Of a stretch of 64,000 nt of DNA, positions 8,647 to 20,093 are shown one piece after another. How positions within the stretch are numbered: position 1 is the first letter of the stretch; each line of letters starts with the position of its first letter. The DNA is from Candidatus Krumholzibacteriota bacterium (lineage in GTDB: Bacteria; Krumholzibacteriota; Krumholzibacteriia; Krumholzibacteriales; Krumholzibacteriaceae), in the NCBI GenBank assembly GCA_030609325.1, contig JAUWCL010000005.1, positions 1 through 64,000 on the forward strand, written 5' to 3'. The position numbers and the translations under genes were made by a program. The notes beneath the pieces were generated by a model. That model was given only the letters and a program-made list of their open reading frames with translations, was not told the origin of the DNA and ran no database searches.

Positions 8647-10488
8647 CTATTCGTCAATATACCAGGCCGCGTCGAATATCGTCGGCATCCCGAAAAGCGC
8701 CGTGACCAGGTTGATCTCGTCCTGTGACGGGTCGTCTATCAGGGGCGCCGTCCCTCCGACCATCAGGTGACCGAGATCACTGCTGTGGCTCAGCTGGAGG
8801 ATATGCCCCAGCTCATGGGCAAATATCCTCCTGCCCCTGATCTGTATCGGTGCGCGCTGATTGATCGGACAGATCCAGATCAGCATCTTCGCCGGCGTAC
8901 CGTCCTCGTTCGATCTGATCGTCTCGACATGATGCTTCGACTCATACTCGGTATCATAGATGATCTCGACGTCCGCCGCGTCGGGATCGGAGATCTCGAT
9001 GAAAAGCTCGAGCTCCGTCAGATCGTTCCAGGCGGTCATCGCGATCCTCGCCAGTGCCTGGATATCGACCCCCTCCCACAAGAACGGAGGGTTGCAGACC
9101 GTCACGGGATAGTGGTCCCAGTTCCTGAAGATCGTAGGCCTTCCGAGCAGGCCCCTCGTATTCGTCATATACCTGAAGAACGTGTAGAAGCTCCCGTCGT
9201 AGGTGCCGTGGAGCTCGCTCACCAGGTCGACGTACGGCATCATCGTCAGATCCTTGCGGAAATGCCAGCTGATGCCCGAAACGGGTATCGCCATATCGTA
9301 GTATGTTCCCTGGTCGCCGACTATATGCTCGTCCCTGATCCTGATGAGATCGGTGTACAGGGGAAGATTGGCGAGCTTGTAGTACCCGTCGGCCAAGGTC
9401 GTATCGGCGATTCCCTCCGCCGAGACAACAACCCCCCCGAGGGAAGCGCCCGTCGCCGCGTCGGTTATATAGCCGTCTGCGTCTATTCCGCGCACGAGCA
9501 GCCTGATGCAGTTGCCCAGCTGCGACATGTTTCCGAAATCGTCCACGACCCTTACCGTGACAAAGAGCCAGGTCCCCGGATTGAGGTTCACGACGATCAT
9601 CTCCTCGATCGTTCCGGGCAGTCCGGGCACCGGCACGCCGTTCTTCTGCGAGGCCTCATTCCAGTCGTCCTCGTTGAGTATAGAGATGGTATGCGTCCTG
9701 ACACGGTAGTGGTTCGCTCTCCCGTCCATGTCATCATCGCCGGACGCTGTCCACTGGAGCCGGATCGTTCCGGGATCGGGCCCCGTCCAGCCGATCAGGT
9801 CGGTGATCCTCGCCGGCAGGATCGTGTCAGGTTCTCCGACCACCCTGACCACCCACAACAGCGTGTCCCCGTACTCGCCGTCCCAGACAATGCCGGTAAC
9901 ATCGAAAAAACCGTTTTCCGTGAACCTGTACTGTGCGGCCGAAGTCTCGTCCATGATCTCGATCGGGACACTGCCGGCGTAGTACGAATACCGCAGGTCC
10001 TCGGGATGGTCGTCCTCGACACCCATCCTGAACTCGATCGTCGAGCCTATGAGCGTAGTGATACTGTCCTGATCGGGTGAGTACCAGTTGATCACGGGCG
10101 GGTCGTTGTGCAGCTCTATAGCGGTGACGTACCAGTCCCTTGCCGCGTAATCAGAATGATCGTGCGCCCTTCCCTGAAGATGATAGAACCCCCCTTCCTG
10201 GGGTTCGAAGACGTAATCCGGCCCGTTATGCAGAATCTCCAGAACCTCGCCCTCGTTATCGACGAGGACATAACTGTAGGTCAGCTCGTCACGGTCAGGA
10301 TCGCCGGCTGTGAAGCTGAACAGGATCGAGTCGATGGGCACCTCGATCACGAGGAGGAGATCCTCGGGGCAGGAGTCCTTGATGTATGGAGGGGAATTCG
10401 GCCTGGCAGGGTCGGTCTGGAAGATGCAAGACTGAAACGCCATTCCCCACGCGAGTCCCAATATGATTAACCCAGTGGCTTTTCGCAT
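8647..10488 (-). CDS. metzincin-type zinc metalloprotease lipoprotein
   Basis: A 613-residue predicted lipoprotein. The chosen ATG (MRKATG) follows GAGGTG, and the N-terminus is a hydrophobic signal ending at a Cys after AFQS. The middle has several beta-sandwich segments, including an Fn3-like one (around ARITDLIGW), then a carboxypeptidase-regulatory-like domain (GYITDAATGASLGGVV). The C-terminal catalytic domain carries HELGHILQLSH, the HExxHxxxxxH zinc motif, followed by a Met-turn candidate (GHLMVGG). This is the metzincin pattern seen in matrixins. It is probably anchored to the envelope and acts on extracellular protein, perhaps host or community matrix. The specific family assignment is inferred. 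Confidence 0.8.
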   Translation of the reverse strand: MRKATGLIILGLAWGMAFQSCIFQTDPARPNSPPYIKDSCPEDLLLVIEVPIDSILFSFTAGDPDRDELTYSYVLVDNEGEVLEILHNGPDYVFEPQEGGFYHLQGRAHDHSDYAARDWYVTAIELHNDPPVINWYSPDQDSITTLIGSTIEFRMGVEDDHPEDLRYSYYAGSVPIEIMDETSAAQYRFTENGFFDVTGIVWDGEYGDTLLWVVRVVGEPDTILPARITDLIGWTGPDPGTIRLQWTASGDDDMDGRANHYRVRTHTISILNEDDWNEASQKNGVPVPGLPGTIEEMIVVNLNPGTWLFVTVRVVDDFGNMSQLGNCIRLLVRGIDADGYITDAATGASLGGVVVSAEGIADTTLADGYYKLANLPLYTDLIRIRDEHIVGDQGTYYDMAIPVSGISWHFRKDLTMMPYVDLVSELHGTYDGSFYTFFRYMTNTRGLLGRPTIFRNWDHYPVTVCNPPFLWEGVDIQALARIAMTAWNDLTELELFIEISDPDAADVEIIYDTEYESKHHVETIRSNEDGTPAKMLIWICPINQRAPIQIRGRRIFAHELGHILQLSHSSDLGHLMVGGTAPLIDDPSQDEINLVTALFGMPTIFDAAWYIDE

Positions 10489-10592
10489 CCTGTCCACCTC
10501 TTCCATCGGTGGGGCCGATACTTCACTTGAAAGGTAATCAATCGGAGGGCGTTGCGAAAGTCGATATTGCGTAATTCCGGAGTGCGGGTCCG

Positions 10593-10919
10593 TCAGGCCC
10601 GCGGCGCGGATGCGGAGAGAAAACATTCCAGGGCAAGGTCGATGGCCCTGAGAAGTCCATCCTCGTCTGATACCCTTATCTCAACCGGGGACTCGCAGCC
10701 GGCCGAGACGAGGAAGAGCTCGCGGTATGGAGAGACCTTCACGTACATGCCCGAATCCGTGGCGAATCTTGTCTCGAAAGGGGCGGCCTCGACGGCCACC
10801 GACGGCGAGAACCCGATGATCTCATCGCAGAGGATCGAGTAGAGGCGCCTTATGCCCCCGTCGGCGATCCTTGAGCCGTTGCGTCCCGCAGTTGCGCGGC
10901 GCTCATCCGCTCCCGTCAC
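10593..10919 (-). CDS. unknown 108-residue protein near parA
   Basis: Not recognised. A GTG start with GGAGGAG six bases upstream is clear, and it overlaps the end of the preceding gene by 17 bases, so the two are probably translationally coupled. The product is soluble and acidic-to-neutral, without signal or membrane segments. The region around YSILCDEIIGF and YRELFLVSAGC looks like a compact alpha/beta fold. Such small proteins next to ParA-like genes can be regulators or adaptors, but nothing in the sequence proves that here. Confidence 0.6.
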   Translation of the reverse strand: MTGADERRATAGRNGSRIADGGIRRLYSILCDEIIGFSPSVAVEAAPFETRFATDSGMYVKVSPYRELFLVSAGCESPVEIRVSDEDGLLRAIDLALECFLSASAPRA

Positions 10920-11703
10920 TTGCCACTCCTCCCTTTCTCGAACCGAGCCTCTGTAGTATCTCACCGGCGAGCCCCGAAAGAAAGACCGAGGCGGGCGGTT
11001 TTCTCCTGCCCAACCCCTCGAGCATCTCCGCCGGGAAGGGGCATGGCTCGATGCCCTGCGCCGCTTCAGCGTTTTCCCCTCCCGGAAAGAGGGCAAGCGC
11101 GGGTCCTCCCGGAAAGAGTTCCTCGAAGTCGCGTAATATCCCTTCCGCCGTTCCGGGGTGACAGTCAGAGACCGTGAGCAGGAAGGCGGGGAGTCCCTCC
11201 CATCCACCCGACCCTTCGAAGGCCGGAACGGAATCGAGCAACCCGCGCAACCCGGCGGTTCCGACGCTTCCCGGCCAGTCAAATGCAAAAAGAAGGACAC
11301 GGGGCCCTGACGCATGCCCGATGCCGGTGTGCCGCAGAAGGGCCGGATCCCTTGTACAGAAAACTCTTATCCTCCGGCCGGCGTCCGCCTCTACGACCAC
11401 CCCACCCTCTATCACAGGACGCAGGTAACGATCGGGACCCAGGGCGAAGTAGTACCCCGCGCAAGGCAGGCCCGGGCCCGTCTCGAGCAGAGTCACGGCG
11501 GCGTTCTGCGATCCGAACGCGGCGGCCAGCCCCGCCGACAACCAGGCCCGGAGCGGGCCGCCATCCAGCGAGGCGATCACGACGAGCGCAGTGGAGCCCG
11601 CCGCCTCCTCCCCCGGCACACGCGACGAGGAAAGATAGAGATGACTTATATCACGGAGATTTCTGGGCCTGTGTCCCCGGTGCATGGCGGTGAAGTCCGG
11701 CAA
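10903..11703 (-). CDS. unknown protein downstream of the ParA-CBM48 gene
   Basis: Not recognised. About 266 residues if it starts at TTG (11703), or 260 from the ATG at 11685; neither has a strong ribosome site. The gene begins within six bases of the ParA stop, so coupling with ParA is likely. The N-terminal part has alternating hydrophobic strands (STALVVIASLDGGP, NAAVTLLETGPG), reminiscent of a P-loop-type Rossmann core without a Walker A motif. Together with the ParA gene and the following 108-residue gene it forms a three-gene unit of unknown function. Confidence 0.6.
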   Translation of the reverse strand: MPDFTAMHRGHRPRNLRDISHLYLSSSRVPGEEAAGSTALVVIASLDGGPLRAWLSAGLAAAFGSQNAAVTLLETGPGLPCAGYYFALGPDRYLRPVIEGGVVVEADAGRRIRVFCTRDPALLRHTGIGHASGPRVLLFAFDWPGSVGTAGLRGLLDSVPAFEGSGGWEGLPAFLLTVSDCHPGTAEGILRDFEELFPGGPALALFPGGENAEAAQGIEPCPFPAEMLEGLGRRKPPASVFLSGLAGEILQRLGSRKGGVASDGSG

Positions 11704-11708
11704 GGTGT

Positions 11709-12782
11709 TCAGACGATCAGCAGAGAGTTTTCCTGCCCGAATTCATTAAGGACCGAATCGACGTTCCTGGGATCCTTTATCCAGACTCCGTCGACGATAT
11801 ACCTGTACTCGTATTCTCCCGGATCGAGATCGACGGCGACCTTCCACAACCCGTCATCGCCGTCCCTATCCATCCTGATCCCGTCGCGCGACCAGTTGGT
11901 GAATTCCCCGGTGAGGTAGACGCTTCCGACCGCAGGGGCATCGAGAACGAAGATCACGCGGCCGGACGCGACACGAGGTCCGTGAAGCTTTTCCATCCAT
12001 TCGCCCATGTCAGCCGTCTCGATAAGCGAGCTCCTGTCCTCGAGCTCCCTCGCCAGCGTGAGGAATTCCCATTTAAGCCGGTCGGAACGCGGGATCCCGA
12101 AGATCGGGACGCCCCTCATGGCCGCTTCCTTGTACTTGACCGAATGGCTTATCGTCACCTCTATCAGCTCGGCTCCGTAAAGCCGCTCAAGCTCCAGGAC
12201 GATGTCTTTCGAGAAATTGGTCCTCTTCTCGATATTGTTGACGAGGATCGACACGGTGACGCGGTGCTTCGTCTCGTTCTCGAGAAGTTCGACCGTCTCA
12301 AGCAGATTGCCCACTCCCTGCAGGGAATAATAGCTCGGATCGACCGGGATGACGACCTCACCGGCGGCCATGAGCGCGTTGAAGGTGAGAAGCCCCACGT
12401 TCGGAGGGGAGTCTATGATGACATAGTCATACCTGTCCTCTATACGTACGAGTTTGGAGGCCAGCCTGGTCTCCCTCGCGTCCTTGCCGGCGAGCTCCTG
12501 CTCCACCGCTCCGAGCACCGGTGAGGACGGGATGACGTCGAGATGGTCGTCGTAGCGGCATGTTGCGTCTTCGACCATCACTCGCGGATCCCTGAGAAGG
12601 TCGTACGTGGTGTGATCGACCTCGCGGCAGGTTACATCGAGACTTAGCGAGGCATGAGATTGGGGATCCATGTCGATAAGAAGCACCTTCTTCTCGAGCT
12701 CCCCGAGCGCTGCGGCGAGATTGACGGCAACCGTCGTCTTGCCGCAACCGCCCTTCTGGTTTATCACCGCTATAGTCCGCAT
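11709..12782 (-). CDS. ParA/Soj-type ATPase fused to a CBM48 glycogen-binding domain
   Basis: A 357-residue protein; the ATG at 12782 is preceded by AGGAGGTG. Residues 1 to about 255 are a ParA/MinD-class ATPase: deviant Walker A KGGCGKTT (residues 10-17), DMDPQ, and Walker B region YVIIDSPPN. Residues about 270-357 match the AMPK-type glycogen-binding / CBM48 fold, with VYLTGEFTNW, the GLWKVAVDLDPGEYEYRY core and DGVWIKDP. ParA ATPases position chromosomes, plasmids or large cytoplasmic cargo by dynamic binding to the nucleoid. CBM48 binds alpha-glucan or serves as an oligomer contact in AMPK-like proteins. The inferred, untested role is positioning or segregation of a glucan-containing body, or glucan-responsive control. 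No ParB gene is adjacent. Confidence 0.88.
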   Translation of the reverse strand: MRTIAVINQKGGCGKTTVAVNLAAALGELEKKVLLIDMDPQSHASLSLDVTCREVDHTTYDLLRDPRVMVEDATCRYDDHLDVIPSSPVLGAVEQELAGKDARETRLASKLVRIEDRYDYVIIDSPPNVGLLTFNALMAAGEVVIPVDPSYYSLQGVGNLLETVELLENETKHRVTVSILVNNIEKRTNFSKDIVLELERLYGAELIEVTISHSVKYKEAAMRGVPIFGIPRSDRLKWEFLTLARELEDRSSLIETADMGEWMEKLHGPRVASGRVIFVLDAPAVGSVYLTGEFTNWSRDGIRMDRDGDDGLWKVAVDLDPGEYEYRYIVDGVWIKDPRNVDSVLNEFGQENSLLIV

Positions 12783-12838
12783 GCTGATCTGCACCTCCTG
12801 ACTTCTGCTCCGAATGCCTGCACCCCTCTCCAGAAAAA

Positions 12839-12867
12839 GGGCCGAATCACCCCCGGCGATTCGGCCC
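12839..12867 (-). terminator. Rho-independent terminator between the DUF212 and ParA genes
   Basis: GGGCCGAATC (12839-12848) pairs perfectly with GATTCGGCCC (12858-12867). On the minus strand the stem is followed by a five-T run. It closes the transcript of the DUF212 gene and the binding-protein gene, and separates it from parA. Confidence 0.8.
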
Positions 12868-13065
12868 CGCTAAGATTCTGAAGTGGAAAAACGCATACAC
12901 GGATCGGAATCCGATGATCTCTGCACGGTCAGCCCCGTTCCGATCTCATCACCCTTTCTGTCCGTTGCCGGCCGATGATGTACCGACATGATACTATCCG
13001 AGTCTCAGTGACCATTTTCCACCCCGGGGAATTAAGTGTCAAGGGTTTTTCGGAGGACTGAAAGA

Positions 13066-13488
13066 CTAGAACATCATCCAGGCGACGAGCAGTCCGAGCG
13101 CGAATCCACCCGTCACCTCGGCCCACGTATGGCCGATAAGTTCGTGCAGTTCATCGGCGTTGAAGTGATGCGTCTCGCGAACCTTGTCGATGATCTCGTT
13201 GAGGACCCTCGCCTGGTTGCCCACTTCCTGCCGCAGCCCGGTCGCCTCGAATATGAAGTAGAGACTTATCACAAGGGTGATGCCGAACAGAGGCGAGGAC
13301 ACGCCCTCGTAGGCCGCCACTCCCGCCGTGAGTGTCGTCACGACAGACGTGTGGGAGCTCGGCATGCCGCCCGTGTCGAGCATGCGGAAGATATTGAAAC
13401 CCTTCCCCTGGATCATGTCCACGAAGGGCTTCAGTACCTGGGCCGCGACGGCGCTGACAAGGGCTCCGATTCCTACCTCATGGACCAT
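13066..13488 (-). CDS. DUF212 (divergent PAP2-related) membrane protein
   Basis: A 140-residue integral membrane protein of the DUF212/YuiD family, related to PAP2 phosphatases. Signature segments are GGMPSSHTS (about residues 41-49) and GHTWAEV near the C-terminus, with about four hydrophobic helices. The family is distantly phosphatase-like; its substrate is not established. The ATG overlaps the end of the upstream binding-protein gene by 11 bases and has GAAAGG upstream, so the two are probably co-translated. Confidence 0.85.
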   Translation of the reverse strand: MVHEVGIGALVSAVAAQVLKPFVDMIQGKGFNIFRMLDTGGMPSSHTSVVTTLTAGVAAYEGVSSPLFGITLVISLYFIFEATGLRQEVGNQARVLNEIIDKVRETHHFNADELHELIGHTWAEVTGGFALGLLVAWMMF

Positions 13489-15097
13489 CGTCGCCTTTCT
13501 TTTCTTTCACTGGTCCGACCCGCCACTCGTGGAGGTTGTGATAATTACTTATCACATCAGGTCTGGCGTCCTCGAAACGTTCATGTAGTGCAAGCCGTTC
13601 GTTGGGAGTCAGCAGGAAAGTATAAGGCTGCTCATCATAGATGATCCGCTGTGCCTCGTAGAACAGAGGCCTGGCTTCATCAAAATTCAGAATGCCGCGG
13701 GCGGTGGAGTTGAGCCTGTCCACCTCGACATTGCAGTAGTCAACCCTGTTGTACCCGCCGACTTTCCTCGCCTCACATGACCATATCGGAGCAAGATCGA
13801 CCTTCGTCCCGACCCTCCATCCGCTGAGAATGGATGCAAAATCAGAGGCCTTGTGCCGCTCAAGCATTACCGTCCACTCGAGGATGACCAGCTCTACCTT
13901 AACACCGATCCTTCCGAGATGTTCCTGGACCATCACCAGTATGTCATTCCTGATCTGAATCCCATGATTGGTCATCATCTCGAACTCGAACCTTTTGCCG
14001 TCGCGGTCGAGCCAGCCGTCGCCGTCGGAGTCGGTGAATCCCGCTTCGGTGAGCAACCGTTTCGCTTCTTCCGGATCGTATGCAACAGGTTTGATATCAT
14101 CATTATATGCCCACATCTGGGGAATAAACGGACTCTTGCATTCAATGGCCAACCCGTAATAGAGGTTCTCTATGATCTCATTCCTGTCGATCGCCATAGT
14201 CATCGCCCTGCGGATATTAACATCCCGGAACAGGGGGTGCTTTCCATTCCAGCCTACATAGAGGTAAGCTCGACTGGGAAAGCTGAAAATGTTTATCCCG
14301 TAATCTTCTTTACGAAGCTTGTCGACCTCAGCCGGTGGAATGCTCTCCATGTAATCAACTTCTCCGCTCTTGAGCTGTGTGATGAGATTGACCTGGTCGG
14401 GGACGATCTTGAAGACCACGCGGTCGAGGTACGGCTTTCCCTCCTCGTAATAGCCCTCATAGGGAACGAGTGTGAGCGACTGCCCCCTGATCCATTCCCT
14501 CACGCGGAACGGGCCGTTCGAAGGGATCTCCTCTACCTTCGCCGCCCTTACCTCCTCGGGCGTCCTGCTCTCGAGGAAATGCTTCGGCAGGATCGGGCCG
14601 TCGTTGGCGTCCATGACCTGGTAGGGATATACATGGCTGAAATGGTATACGACGGTGTAGTCGTCGACGACACGCACCTCGTCGATATGCTCCTTGAGGT
14701 GCCTGCCGCTCCACACCATCGCAGTATCCTTCTGGGCGGTGAAGGTGGCGAGCACGTCATGAGCGGTGAATCCGACGCCGTCGCTCCATACGACGTCGTC
14801 GCGAAGGTGGAATGTCAGCTCTCTGCGGTCGGCGGAAAACTTCCAGGATTTTGCAAGCCTGGGTCTGAATGTTAAAAAATCATCGTTCTCGTCTAGGAGA
14901 GAAAGAAAAATCTGGTTATAGATATCCCGTGCATGCGCATCGGTCGCCTTCATGGGATTGAGGCCTTCGTATGCACTCGGTTCCCCTACGACCAGGGTGC
15001 CGCCGCGAAGCCCCGGCTCCCTGTCACCGGCACACGAAGAGACTAGAACAGCGACAGCAAGAACCGCAATTAAAAGATAACCGGTCTTTCTGGACAT
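13478..15097 (-). CDS. family 5 extracellular solute-binding lipoprotein (oligopeptide/nickel type)
   Basis: A periplasmic binding protein of the SBP_bac_5 (OppA/DppA/NikA) class, about 539 residues. The preferred ATG (MSRKTG) follows GGAAGGTGGG; an upstream ATG at 15121 is also possible. Residues 1-22 are a lipoprotein signal with lipobox LVSSC. The typical openings GGTLVVGEP, GLNPMKATD and the FRPRLAKSW segment are present, as is the C-terminal lobe. Such proteins deliver peptides, sugars or metals to an ABC importer, but no permease or ATPase gene lies nearby, so it is an orphan here. The ligand cannot be read from sequence. Confidence 0.88.
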   Translation of the reverse strand: MSRKTGYLLIAVLAVAVLVSSCAGDREPGLRGGTLVVGEPSAYEGLNPMKATDAHARDIYNQIFLSLLDENDDFLTFRPRLAKSWKFSADRRELTFHLRDDVVWSDGVGFTAHDVLATFTAQKDTAMVWSGRHLKEHIDEVRVVDDYTVVYHFSHVYPYQVMDANDGPILPKHFLESRTPEEVRAAKVEEIPSNGPFRVREWIRGQSLTLVPYEGYYEEGKPYLDRVVFKIVPDQVNLITQLKSGEVDYMESIPPAEVDKLRKEDYGINIFSFPSRAYLYVGWNGKHPLFRDVNIRRAMTMAIDRNEIIENLYYGLAIECKSPFIPQMWAYNDDIKPVAYDPEEAKRLLTEAGFTDSDGDGWLDRDGKRFEFEMMTNHGIQIRNDILVMVQEHLGRIGVKVELVILEWTVMLERHKASDFASILSGWRVGTKVDLAPIWSCEARKVGGYNRVDYCNVEVDRLNSTARGILNFDEARPLFYEAQRIIYDEQPYTFLLTPNERLALHERFEDARPDVISNYHNLHEWRVGPVKEKKGDDGP

Positions 15098-16920: not shown

Positions 16921-18087
16921 ATGGTACTGACCGGATGCGACATACTGAGCGGCGGCGGATACATCCTGCCCTCCGGGGCCAGGGTCGGCCTTCTCACCAA
17001 CCAGGCTTCCGTCTCCGCTTCCCTCGTGCACACGGCCGACATCATCGCCCGGAACGACGCCGGGCTCGCATGCCTCTTCGGGCCGCAGCACGGCCCGTCC
17101 GGCCTGACCCAGGCGAACATGATCGAATGGGAGGGGTACACCGATCCGCGGCTCGGCATCCCCGTCCATTCCCTCTACGGCGAGACGAGGTCCCCTCTTC
17201 CGGAGATGCTCGAGAAACTCGACATCGTCGTAGTGGACCTGCAGGACGTCGGTGCGCGCCCCTATACGTATATATGGACGGCTCTCCTGATGATGCGGGC
17301 GTGCGCGGCGGCCGGCATCGACATGATCGTCCTGGACAGGCCGAATCCTCTCGGCGGGATCGAGGTCGAGGGTCCGGTCCTCGAGGAAGGATACGAGTCG
17401 TTCGTCGGTCTCTGGCCCCTGCCGCTGCGCCACGGGATGACGATCGGCGAGATACTGCTGGGGATAAACAGGGAGGAGCCCAATCCCTGCACCCTGGAGA
17501 TCGTCAAGATGAAGGGCTGGAAGAGAGATATGCTCTTCACCGATACGGGGCTTCCATGGGTCATGCCCTCCCCCAACATGCCGACGCCCGATACGGCGCT
17601 CGTCTACCCGGGAATGGTCCTGCTCGAGGGAACGAACATCTCGGAAGGCAGAGGCACTACCCGGCCGTTCGAGCTGTCAGGAGCGCCGTGGATCGATCCC
17701 CTGGAATTCTCTTCCGCGCTCGGCGCTGCCGGCGTCCCCGGAGCGGTCTTCAGGCCTGTAGTATTCGGGCCGACCTTCGACAAGTATGCAGGCAAGGAAT
17801 GCGGGGGCATGCAGGTTCATGTCACCGATCCGGCCTCGTTCAGGCCGGCGCTCTGCGCCGTCGCCGTAATAAGGGCGGCCTCAGAGCTCTATCCGGAGAG
17901 TTTCGCCTGGCTTGACCCTCCATACGAATACGAGACAGACAAACTGCCGATAGACATAATATACGGCGGCCCCGGATTGAGGGAAGGGATCGGCGGTGGG
18001 ATGACCGCCGAAGAGATCGCCTTCTCCTGGAAAAGACCGCTCGACCGTTTCCTCGAGTCGAGAACCGGACTGATCCTCTACGACTGA
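16921..18087 (+). CDS. namZ: exo-beta-N-acetylmuramidase NamZ (DUF1343)
   Basis: A 388-residue DUF1343-family protein. Family hallmarks include RVGLLTNQASV, LFGPQHG, a conserved Arg-Ser segment (YGETRSPLPEML), DLQDVGARPYTY, DRPNPLGG and EGTNISEGRGTTRPFE. Characterised NamZ enzymes release terminal MurNAc from the non-reducing end of peptidoglycan fragments. No signal peptide is visible, which fits a cytoplasmic enzyme acting on imported disaccharides. GAGG lies five bases before the ATG. The two genes that follow can convert free MurNAc to UDP-MurNAc, which strongly supports the assignment. Confidence 0.92.
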   Translation: MVLTGCDILSGGGYILPSGARVGLLTNQASVSASLVHTADIIARNDAGLACLFGPQHGPSGLTQANMIEWEGYTDPRLGIPVHSLYGETRSPLPEMLEKLDIVVVDLQDVGARPYTYIWTALLMMRACAAAGIDMIVLDRPNPLGGIEVEGPVLEEGYESFVGLWPLPLRHGMTIGEILLGINREEPNPCTLEIVKMKGWKRDMLFTDTGLPWVMPSPNMPTPDTALVYPGMVLLEGTNISEGRGTTRPFELSGAPWIDPLEFSSALGAAGVPGAVFRPVVFGPTFDKYAGKECGGMQVHVTDPASFRPALCAVAVIRAASELYPESFAWLDPPYEYETDKLPIDIIYGGPGLREGIGGGMTAEEIAFSWKRPLDRFLESRTGLILYD

Positions 18088-18102
18088 GCGAAAGGCAATG
18101 AC

Positions 18103-19065
18103 ATGACCGGCGGGAGAATCGAGGGGATCATACTTGCGGCGGGAAAGGGCACGAGGATGCTGCCTCTTACCAACGTACTGCCCAAACCCCTCCTCCCCAT
18201 CACCGGGGTCCCCCTGCTCGAAATCGCGGCGGAGAAGCTTCTCCGCTCCGGCGCTGCGAGACTTCACGTCAATCTGTTCCATCTGGGAGAGATGATACGG
18301 GAATACGCCGATGGAAAAGGATGGCCGCTGCTCTTCCACGAGGAAGAGGAGCTTCTCGACACGGGCGACGGCATCGGAAACATGGCCGGCGATCTCCGGG
18401 ATGCAGATCACATACTGCTCCACAACGGGGACGTTCTCTCCTCGTTCGGTTTCGACGAAGCGCTCGCATTCCACATCAAACACGAGGCGCTCGTGACCAT
18501 GATACTGATGAGGCCGGGAGACAAGGGCCGGACACCTCCGCCGGCGGTCACGGCGACCGCCGGCGGCGATGTGCTCGGCATAGGTACGGTTCCGCCGGAC
18601 GGGTCCACAGCACTGGGATACACGGGTATGGCGATAATCTCCGGCGAGGCGCTCGGATATTTCCCCGGGGAAAAGAAGGGTCTCGTCCCCGTGCTTCTCG
18701 AGATGATCTCCGACCGGCCCGGCTCGGTCGCCGGATTCGACGCCTCATCGATCGATGCGGCGGTCTGGGGCGAGATCGGCTCTCCCTCGTCATATCTCGA
18801 CATACACAGGAGGATCATGATAGAAAGGGTCCTGTTCGACGGGGCCGTTCAGCCTCCGCCGATGCCGCTGAGGACAGGCGCCGGTTCCTCGGTCGATCCC
18901 GGAGCGGAATGGACCGGATTCCTCGACGTGGGAAACGGCGCCCGCATAGAGGGAAACACCTTCCTCGAAGACTGCGTAGTACTGGATGGCGCCATCGTAC
19001 GGAACGGTACGAGGCTGAGATCGGCCGTTGTCTACGATGACAAAGTACTGGAGGTAGAAAAGTGA
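18103..19065 (+). CDS. murU: MurU-like N-acetylmuramate-1-phosphate uridylyltransferase
   Basis: A 320-residue nucleotidyltransferase of the MurU/RmlA class. The N-terminus has the signature GIILAAGKGTRMLPLT (about residues 6-21) and the sugar-phosphate pocket motif PKPLLPI. A short beta-helical tail (SVDPGAEWTGFLDVGNGARI) follows the catalytic domain, making it longer than Pseudomonas MurU (about 225 residues). The sequence alone fits any sugar-1-phosphate nucleotidyltransferase. The MurNAc assignment is inferred from its place between namZ and the amgK-like kinase, which it overlaps by four bases. It would form UDP-MurNAc from MurNAc-1-P and UTP. Confidence 0.8.
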   Translation: MTGGRIEGIILAAGKGTRMLPLTNVLPKPLLPITGVPLLEIAAEKLLRSGAARLHVNLFHLGEMIREYADGKGWPLLFHEEEELLDTGDGIGNMAGDLRDADHILLHNGDVLSSFGFDEALAFHIKHEALVTMILMRPGDKGRTPPPAVTATAGGDVLGIGTVPPDGSTALGYTGMAIISGEALGYFPGEKKGLVPVLLEMISDRPGSVAGFDASSIDAAVWGEIGSPSSYLDIHRRIMIERVLFDGAVQPPPMPLRTGAGSSVDPGAEWTGFLDVGNGARIEGNTFLEDCVVLDGAIVRNGTRLRSAVVYDDKVLEVEK

Positions 19066-20093
19066 CAGATCCCGATATCCTCGAACTGGCGGGCAGGGCA
19101 CTCGAAGGCCCGTGGGACCGCATGCCGGGCGGCGGATTCTCGAAACAGGCCTCGGTCAGCGAGATGACCCGGGGAGGTTCCGACAGGCATTTCCTCAGGG
19201 TCAAGGAAGACGGCCTCTCCGCTGTCGTCCTCATCCAGCCCGGAGGGGGCGCGGAGTTCGACCGATATGTGCGGATCGGAGACTTTCTGCGCGAAAACGG
19301 CGTCGCAGTCCCCGGTTTCTATTTCGTCGACAAGGGCGGAGTGGTGGTGATGGAGGATCTCGGCGACATCCATCTCGTCGATGCTCTCGAAGACGCCGAC
19401 CCGCCGGTGGAACTCGCCTTCTACCGCGACTGCATCGATATACTGTACCGGCTCCAGACATCGGTGACCAGGGCGGAGAAAGAGACCGGGGTCCTCGGCG
19501 ATATGGTCTTCTCGGAGGAGGTGCTTCTCGGCGAGACCGACTACTTAGCGAGGGAATTCGTCGTGCATTACGCCGGCCTGCCGGTGCCCGAAGGGTGGGA
19601 CGCCGAGAGAAGAACACTGGCCGCAGAGCTCGCCTTGCATCCGCTGGTCTTCATGCACAGGGATTTCCAGAGCCGGAATATCATGGTCAAGGACGGGACC
19701 CTGCGGATCGTCGACTTCCAGACCGCTCACAGGGGGCTCGGTATGTACGACGTCGCCTCCCTTCTGAAGGACCCATACCACCCCGTTGAGCCCGGAACGA
19801 GGAAGACGCTGCTGATGGAGCTCTACTACAGATTCACAGGAGACGGCCCCGAACCGGAAGGAGGCTTCGAGGCGTTCAACGACCGGTTCGTACTCGCCGG
19901 CATCCAGAGGAATATGCAGGCCCTGGCGGCGTTCGCCTTCCTCGGCCTGAAGAAGGGCAAGAAGGAATTCCTGGAGTTCATCGATCCGGGTCTGGCGCTG
20001 CTAGAGGAGGGCCTCGCAGAATCGAACAGGTTTCCCGCGACGTCGGGCCTCGTCGTCACCATCAGGGAAAAGATCACAGGAAGGAACAAGTAA
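19062..20093 (+). CDS. amgK: AmgK-like anomeric MurNAc/GlcNAc kinase
   Basis: A 343-residue kinase of the aminoglycoside-phosphotransferase superfamily. The GTG start overlaps the murU stop (GTGA) and follows GGAGG. Catalytic loop HRDFQSRNIM (about residues 198-207) and metal-binding IVDFQTA are intact. The opening GGGFSKQASVSEMTRGGSDRHFLRV resembles the nucleotide-binding lobe of AmgK. AmgK phosphorylates MurNAc at C1, feeding MurU and bypassing de novo UDP-MurNAc synthesis (the route that gives fosfomycin tolerance in pseudomonads). Substrate choice is inferred from the operon. Confidence 0.82.
   Translation: MTDPDILELAGRALEGPWDRMPGGGFSKQASVSEMTRGGSDRHFLRVKEDGLSAVVLIQPGGGAEFDRYVRIGDFLRENGVAVPGFYFVDKGGVVVMEDLGDIHLVDALEDADPPVELAFYRDCIDILYRLQTSVTRAEKETGVLGDMVFSEEVLLGETDYLAREFVVHYAGLPVPEGWDAERRTLAAELALHPLVFMHRDFQSRNIMVKDGTLRIVDFQTAHRGLGMYDVASLLKDPYHPVEPGTRKTLLMELYYRFTGDGPEPEGGFEAFNDRFVLAGIQRNMQALAAFAFLGLKKGKKEFLEFIDPGLALLEEGLAESNRFPATSGLVVTIREKITGRNK

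Follow-up and report, generated by a model that had tools for sequence, protein, structure and literature searches.

A ParA-type ATPase carrying a predicted glycogen-binding CBM48 domain, conserved across several bacterial phyla

The ParA-CBM48 gene and its domains

The window analyzed here, i.e., the whole stretch of 64,000 nucleotides from a contig of a Candidatus Krumholzibacteriota bacterium, contains on its minus strand a gene for one 357-residue protein, in which an intact ParA ATPase is joined through a disordered linker to a CBM48/AMPK-type domain at the C-terminus (Table 1). We refer to this protein as ParA-CBM48. ParA ATPases serve bacteria in the positioning of DNA and organelles. 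Its neighbors in the window include genes for ClpB, a metalloprotease-like protein, a DUF212 protein and an ABC substrate-binding protein. An AGGAGG ribosome-binding site lies 11 nt upstream of the ATG; a GTG at 12794, inside that site, is a less likely start. Between the DUF212 gene and the start of ParA-CBM48, a 14-bp, GC-rich hairpin with a T-run (12838-12868, minus strand) resembles a terminator, and a sigma-70-like match was found at 13042-13014. This hairpin may work as a terminator or as a leader control; an Rfam scan of 10400-13700 retrieved no known RNA element.

Table 1. Features of the ParA-CBM48 locus in the window.
Feature	Position	Strand	Details
DUF212 (divergent PAP2) membrane protein	13066..13488	minus	PF02681, E 6.9e-35
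ParA-CBM48 ORF	11709..12782	minus	357 aa; ATG at 12782, stop at 11709
ParA ATPase core, residues 1-250	12033..12782	minus	AAA_31, Foldseek, residue table
Flexible linker, about residues 251-269	11976..12032	minus	pLDDT below 50 for 252-269; orthologue lengths differ
CBM48/AMPK-type domain, residues 270-357, predicted glucan-binding	11712..11975	minus	PF16561 and AMPK contact positions
Partner protein, 260 aa	10903..11685	minus	in most relatives, also the next gene downstream
Partner motif LRDISHLYLS, residues 10-19, after MHRGHRPRN	11629..11658	minus	
Third gene, 108 aa, GTG start	10593..10919	minus	overlaps the partner's end

An earlier note on this DNA had described the protein as a canonical ParA core followed by a complete CBM48/AMPK-type domain, and Pfam, AlphaFold2 and Foldseek all agree with that description. 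The Pfam family AAA_31 (ParA) matches residues 1-175 (E 1.7e-52), AMPK1_CBM (PF16561) matches residues 287-355 (E 1.9e-11; 44.4 bits, cut-off 26.8), and the CBM_48 profile likewise scores above its cut-off. Moreover, phmmer matched the tail to carbohydrate-binding structures of AMPK beta-1 (e.g., 1z0n, E 5.8e-7). In the AlphaFold2 model (mean pLDDT 86.4), built on an alignment of 50 sequences, the ParA domain and the beta-sandwich are both confident, and residues 252-269 between them form a low-confidence, disordered linker. Foldseek placed the core on Soj/ParA structures with E-values of 1e-22 to 3e-26 and a TM score, normalized to the target, of 0.93. Across the 50 aligned sequences, from which the longer Phycisphaerae proteins were left out, the linker measures between 19 and 85 residues.

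The deviant Walker A motif of the core, KGGCGKTT, conforms to KGGxGK[T/S] with its signature lysine; K10 and K15 are invariant in all 50 aligned sequences, as are the catalytic aspartates D37, D39 and D124 of the Walker A' and Walker B motifs. A cysteine directly after KGG, present in 49 of the 50, is a mark of the group. By its Walker motifs, its aspartates and its Soj/ParA fold, ParA-CBM48 belongs to the ParA/MinD (A/D) ATPase family. Basic residues also occupy the positions of the DNA contacts of Soj (R187 in 46/50 sequences, K/R216 in 47/50), as R187 and K216 align with R189 and R218 of Bacillus subtilis Soj. We take these to be the DNA-binding arginines of Soj, which Hester and Lutkenhaus reportedly described in a 2007 study (cited in PMC12462528); in the Soj sequence used for the alignment, arginines fall exactly at positions 189 and 218. 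The C-terminus consists of the CBM, and no MinD-type C-terminal membrane-targeting helix is found. The protein hence resembles nucleoid-binding ParA rather than membrane-binding MinD, and it is predicted to bind DNA.

Regarding the C-terminal domain, W297, R327, W334 and N352 occupy the positions of W100, K126, W133 and N150 of AMPK beta-1, for which structure and mutation show a role in glycogen binding (PMC4032982, PMC2642990). The two stacking tryptophans, W297 and W334, are invariant (50/50), and the remaining contacts are kept in 90-96% of the sequences (R/K327 in 48/50, N352 in 45/50). The earlier note had made its proposal depend on the sugar-contacting aromatics, and these are in place as far as sequence can tell. 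All four contacts are also kept by the CBM48 domains of relatives that lie beside or within alpha-glucan enzymes. The same genome encodes four exported CBM48 domains, three of which have lost the second tryptophan; the fourth, on a lipoprotein-like protein, retains all four contacts, so this signature is not exclusive to glycogen metabolism. These four domains, three of them in tandem, sit on exported or lipoprotein-like proteins at L108 (contig C46, 2073-4843) and L109 (5740-8418).

Distribution, partner gene and genomic surroundings

Proteins 94% and 86% identical are encoded in named Candidatus Krumholzibacteriota MAGs, to which the window's genome is close. Among the Krumholzibacteriota sampled, nearly all relatives, from those in its family and order up to the class, match over the full length (1-357), which places the architecture beyond chance. 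Outside the class, a profile of 50 sequences detected about 16 further families with full-length members, the full-length matches there scoring at least 332 bits and the ParA-only matches mostly at most 278. Full-length relatives occur in Nitrospirota, Planctomycetota, Omnitrophota, Thermodesulfobacteriota and other groups, and Omnitrophota, Desulfobacterales, Phycisphaerae and Nitrospirae are represented among the named loci. At least five bacterial phyla have ParA-CBM48, which forms an old and conserved family. The architecture search thereby removed the earlier note's reservation that the fusion might be limited to a single genome, and conservation across families and phyla rules out an artefact or chimera of one genome. 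With the sugar-contacting aromatics invariant and the fusion found across several phyla, the identification as a glucan-binding ParA is well supported at the level of sequence.

In a maximum-likelihood tree of the ParA cores only (94 rows, LG+C20), 75 CBM-bearing and 4 CBM-less members form one clade, split from 15 other ParAs with 100/97 support. Repeated independent fusions are rejected, as all 79 fall together; a single gain of the CBM followed by few losses would be the simplest reading. Two of the CBM-less members are Phycisphaerae proteins nested among CBM-bearing ones, and the other two (L140 and L141) have a neighboring gene that opens with a RKLGRGLAEVSNVF segment. Two genomes outside the class, G213 (L126/L127) and G306 (L133/L134), harbor two ParA-CBM copies each, one with a motif-bearing partner (see below) and a second with no detectable partner. 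Separately, Theseobacter-like genomes (L053-L055) encode a different, CBM-less ParA with a conserved downstream protein, in which N-terminal KSGLSKDVSSIL-type segments precede 'VLGIDIS...VK'; this could be another orphan ParA system.

The partner gene begins 23 nt past the stop codon of ParA-CBM48, and its ATG has no obvious ribosome-binding site. The first 19 residues of the protein read MHRGHRPRNLRDISHLYLS and hold a basic, ParB-like, putative ParA-activation motif ('[LGRG]LxDISHLFLS'). Partners from other phyla have an N-terminal motif of the LGRGLEDISHLFLS type: downstream genes in Nitrospirota and further lineages open with MKGRRLGRGLEEISDVFFS, MKTKSLGRGMEEISHIFLS and MDKGKKLGRGLEDISHLFLS, another with the same kind of segment (MEQRDAIVKNLREISHFFLS), and that of Desulfobacterales with MERKSLGRGIEDISNVFMS. 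The ParB adjoining the other ParA of the genome starts with MKKEVLGRGLEALLSP. Activators of ParA/MinD ATPases are poorly conserved, yet they have in common a short, basic peptide at the N-terminus (PMC13170346, PMC10241942, PMC12462528), and by resemblance the basic, aliphatic N-terminus of the partner qualifies as a putative ParA-activation motif. Of 81 clade loci, 45 matched a strict motif pattern just downstream, a count that is descriptive since the pattern was derived from the partners themselves; none of 13 other ParA loci or 936 other ORFs did, and these zeros serve as the control. Looser variants can be recognized by eye in several loci failing the strict pattern (L094, L097 and L103); in Omnitrophota, several further lineages and G033, the motif was not found. 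This conserved downstream partner, absent from the earlier note, is the strongest evidence for a real ParA-type switch.

After the motif, the partner consists of a diverged ParA/MinD domain: hhalign aligned it to the ParA alignment with a probability of 93.3% (E 2.6e-7), and its AlphaFold2 model (pLDDT 84.3, pTM 0.85) matched MinD and FleN in Foldseek with E about 1e-4. The P-loop of the window's partner is lost (SLDGGPLRAW), and GAPGKST persists in L041. The Pfam scan of this partner gave no match and no ParB/Srx (CTPase) domain. Pfam likewise gave no match for the third gene, which by eye resembles the C-terminal end of the longer third proteins in L041 and L128. Third genes following the partner in several phyla (L041, 10255-11148; L123, 2541-3104; L125, 2716-3258; L126, 8954-9748; L132, 9468-10154) show an 'IDL(I/V)A...LLI' pattern recalling PD-(D/E)XK-type folds, and had no significant Pfam match.

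We then turned to the gene neighborhoods. A DUF212 gene lies directly upstream of ParA-CBM48 in about 20 loci of the class. In family f7, the ParA-CBM gene of G033 is followed by genes for a small CBM48 protein, two GT4/GT5-type transferases, a GH57 branching enzyme and a phosphorylase; the G036 locus has the CBM48 protein along with a fragment of a transferase, its start. In the L041/L124 lineage, an alpha-amylase with a CBM48 domain is encoded three genes upstream. Adjacency to glycogen genes is limited to these two lineages, and most remaining loci, the window included, have no glucan gene near ParA-CBM. In families f5 and f6 (L093, L098-L103), the gene lies upstream of an O-antigen/exopolysaccharide cluster, the next genes encoding an O-antigen-ligase-like Wzy_C protein, a GT4, a WecA-like transferase and, in one locus, a GNVR/Wzz-like protein. 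Other contigs of the window's genome encode a GT5 synthase and a glycogen phosphorylase, the latter full-length. A GT5 synthase or phosphorylase was found in 59 of 60 genomes with a clade ParA versus 10 of 14 relatives without one (Fisher p 0.004, a value that ignores phylogeny, some of the gene-lacking genomes being incomplete and G036 having only its transferase fragment), a co-occurrence that we treat as weak evidence. Elsewhere in the window, genes for a NamZ exo-muramidase, a nucleotidyltransferase and an APH-type kinase stand in a row (16921-20093, plus strand) and, by Pfam families, look like a MurNAc salvage cluster of the NamZ-MurU-AmgK type.

Comparison with known systems

ParA-CBM48 shares with chromosomal ParABS (Soj/Spo0J) a core 33-39% identical to solved Soj/ParA structures, the catalytic residues, the basic DNA-contact positions and a downstream partner with a basic, LGRGL-like N-terminus. 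It differs in its C-terminal CBM48 and in its partner, a degenerate ParA/MinD fold instead of a ParB/Srx domain; no ParB with such a domain adjoins the gene. A role as the chromosomal ParA was rejected, given a canonical-looking run on contig C44 (L105) of a ParA gene with genes that, from their sequences, we take to be MnmE, MnmG and ParB, in the order MnmE-MnmG-ParA-ParB. Plasmid partition was also rejected: apart from four records with at least 80% coverage, the best plasmid matches listed span the ParA core only. Similarly, anti-phage defense was discarded, the PADLOC search yielding a single weak match, to a P-loop stretch.

In the McdAB carboxysome-positioning system, too, a ParA-type ATPase and its diverged partner serve a carbon-related cargo, as proposed here for ParA-CBM, but the putative cargo-binding domain of ParA-CBM is on the ATPase itself and not on the partner; neither McdB nor carboxysome genes occur among the window neighbors, which speaks against carboxysome positioning. 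For BcsQ of cellulose secretion, the NCBIfam score was 77.2 bits against a cut-off of 157.85, and no cellulose-synthesis genes were found among the scanned neighbors of ParA-CBM48. The protein is a member of the ParA family and lies outside the ParABS, McdAB and BcsQ systems. PomXYZ also relies on a nucleoid-bound ParA-type ATPase that is activated by the short basic N-terminal peptide of a partner, PomX; it differs in positioning the division site, in having no known CBM and in its other partners.

With the AMPK beta CBM48, the domain shares its family and all four main glucan contacts, R replacing K126; it differs in being fused to a ParA switch rather than to kinase-complex sequences, and its glucan binding is a prediction. 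Finally, PHB granules are held to the nucleoid by PhaM, PhaF and PhaH, proteins with a granule-binding and a DNA-binding end (PMC13052382). The logic proposed for ParA-CBM is the same, one end on the storage granule and the other on DNA non-specifically, whereas the PHB proteins use histone-like or helix-hairpin-helix domains with no ParA homology (PMC13052382).

Possible functions of the ParA-CBM48 module

The reading that we prefer, at somewhat under an even chance, is that ParA-CBM works as an ATP-gated tether between the nucleoid and alpha-glucan, reset by its partner. ParA-CBM would then be a molecular switch carrying its own alpha-glucan (glycogen) anchor, in a module that combines the ParA as switch, a resetter predicted from the partner motif, DNA as the predicted matrix and alpha-glucan as the predicted ligand. 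ATP-bound dimers would bind DNA non-specifically and, at the same time, their two CBM48 tails on flexible linkers would grip the outer chains of glycogen, tethering the particle to the nucleoid. The basic N-terminal motif of the partner would dock on the dimer in the way ParB docks on ParA, and trigger ATP hydrolysis, releasing the tether. Repeated cycles may spread glycogen particles over the nucleoid, or stop them from excluding it, so that glycogen would be inherited in part by both daughter cells. ParA-CBM would, in this way, be the ATP-switchable glycogen counterpart of the PHB granule tethers.

This tether is favored by the invariant ParA motifs, the kept CBM contacts, the well-supported clade and the partner motif, by the precedent of PHB granules tethered to the nucleoid, by the glucan-gene neighbors in G033, G036 and L041/L124, and by the glycogen phosphorylase and synthase of the genome. 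Against it stand the known systems, in which the partner and not the ATPase holds the cargo, the many loci with no nearby glycogen gene, the exopolysaccharide cluster of f5/f6, the four-contact signature on an exported lipoprotein-like CBM48, the lineages in which the motif is absent, and some glycogen-making relatives with no ParA-CBM48 gene. The earlier note's idea of a ParA that places glycogen granules is supported in part: a glucan-binding ParA is well supported by sequence, and placing at division is plausible, the points against it being that glucan genes are adjacent in only two lineages and that an exopolysaccharide cluster lies beside the gene in another.

We regard as unlikely that the CBM48 is instead a glucan sensor. 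It would inform the ParA switch of how much glycogen or maltodextrin is present, much as the AMPK beta CBM informs its kinase, and the ParA/partner pair would control some other process, e.g., division, growth or transcription, glucan being a signal rather than a cargo. The regulatory nature of the AMPK beta CBM, through which glycogen inhibits the kinase (PMC2642990), would fit such a sensor, as would the partner fold, similar to MinD/FleN-type regulators, and the glycogen genes mostly unlinked to ParA-CBM. However, a linker that is disordered in the model and varies from 19 to 85 residues is ill-suited to rigid allosteric coupling, which argues for a tether, and no conserved inter-domain interface was identified.

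Less probable still is a role connected with the envelope or with exopolysaccharide, in which ParA and its pseudo-ATPase partner would act where a polysaccharide is assembled, in the manner of BcsQ in cellulose secretion, the CBM48 binding nascent cytoplasmic alpha-glucan or glycan. The genes that follow ParA-CBM in f5/f6 point in this direction, together with a Pfam BcsQ profile match of 54 bits and the DUF212 membrane protein upstream across the class. The exopolysaccharide neighbors are, however, confined to f5/f6, and the NCBIfam BcsQ models score far under the cut-off with no bcs genes nearby. Moreover, the Wzy route handles short, lipid-linked repeat units that are polymerized outside the cytoplasm, not alpha-1,4-glucan.

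The least probable alternative is that the CBM48 was recruited for protein-protein interaction, with no sugar involved, in an ordinary orphan ParA positioning some protein cargo: CBM48 folds do occur on exported proteins of the same genome, and the ParA/partner pair can exist without a CBM, since at least L140 and L141 among the four CBM-less clade members retain the motif-bearing neighbor, but the stacking tryptophans are invariant across phyla, R/K327 and N352 are almost invariant, and the exported domains of the same genome mostly lack the second tryptophan.

Returning to the tether, the earlier note knew of no described system of this kind, and our search of the open-access literature bears this out, as it returned neither a ParA with a CBM48 nor a ParA system for glycogen. 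Glycogen is not mentioned in a paper on multiple ParA/MinD cargos, nor anywhere in a 2025 review of how organelles are positioned, which treats carboxysomes, magnetosomes, PHB and polyphosphate (PMC13052382). In E. coli, glycogen phase-separates and rearranges the cell interior (PMC12706056), and in a csrA mutant with glycogen piled at the old pole, old-pole cells arise that have no chromosome and no longer divide (PMC4836754). As a conserved multi-phylum family that keeps its sugar-gripping residues and usually has a ParB-like neighbor, ParA-CBM48 may be part of a hitherto undescribed system for holding or placing the glycogen that a cell stores. That it is a widespread bacterial system dedicated to the ATP-driven positioning and inheritance of glycogen, with a CBM48 hook on the ParA and a pseudo-ParA whose ParB-like peptide resets it, is a more doubtful proposal than the tether itself.

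Altogether, a gene pair with a ParA and a predicted glycogen-binding domain, present in multiple phyla, makes the sharing-out of bacterial glycogen directly testable, and extends ParA systems to a design in which the ATPase, and not just its partner, could hold the cargo. If true, the cargo of a ParA would be a soluble polymer, as opposed to DNA or a protein-shelled body, and the cargo hook would sit on the motor.
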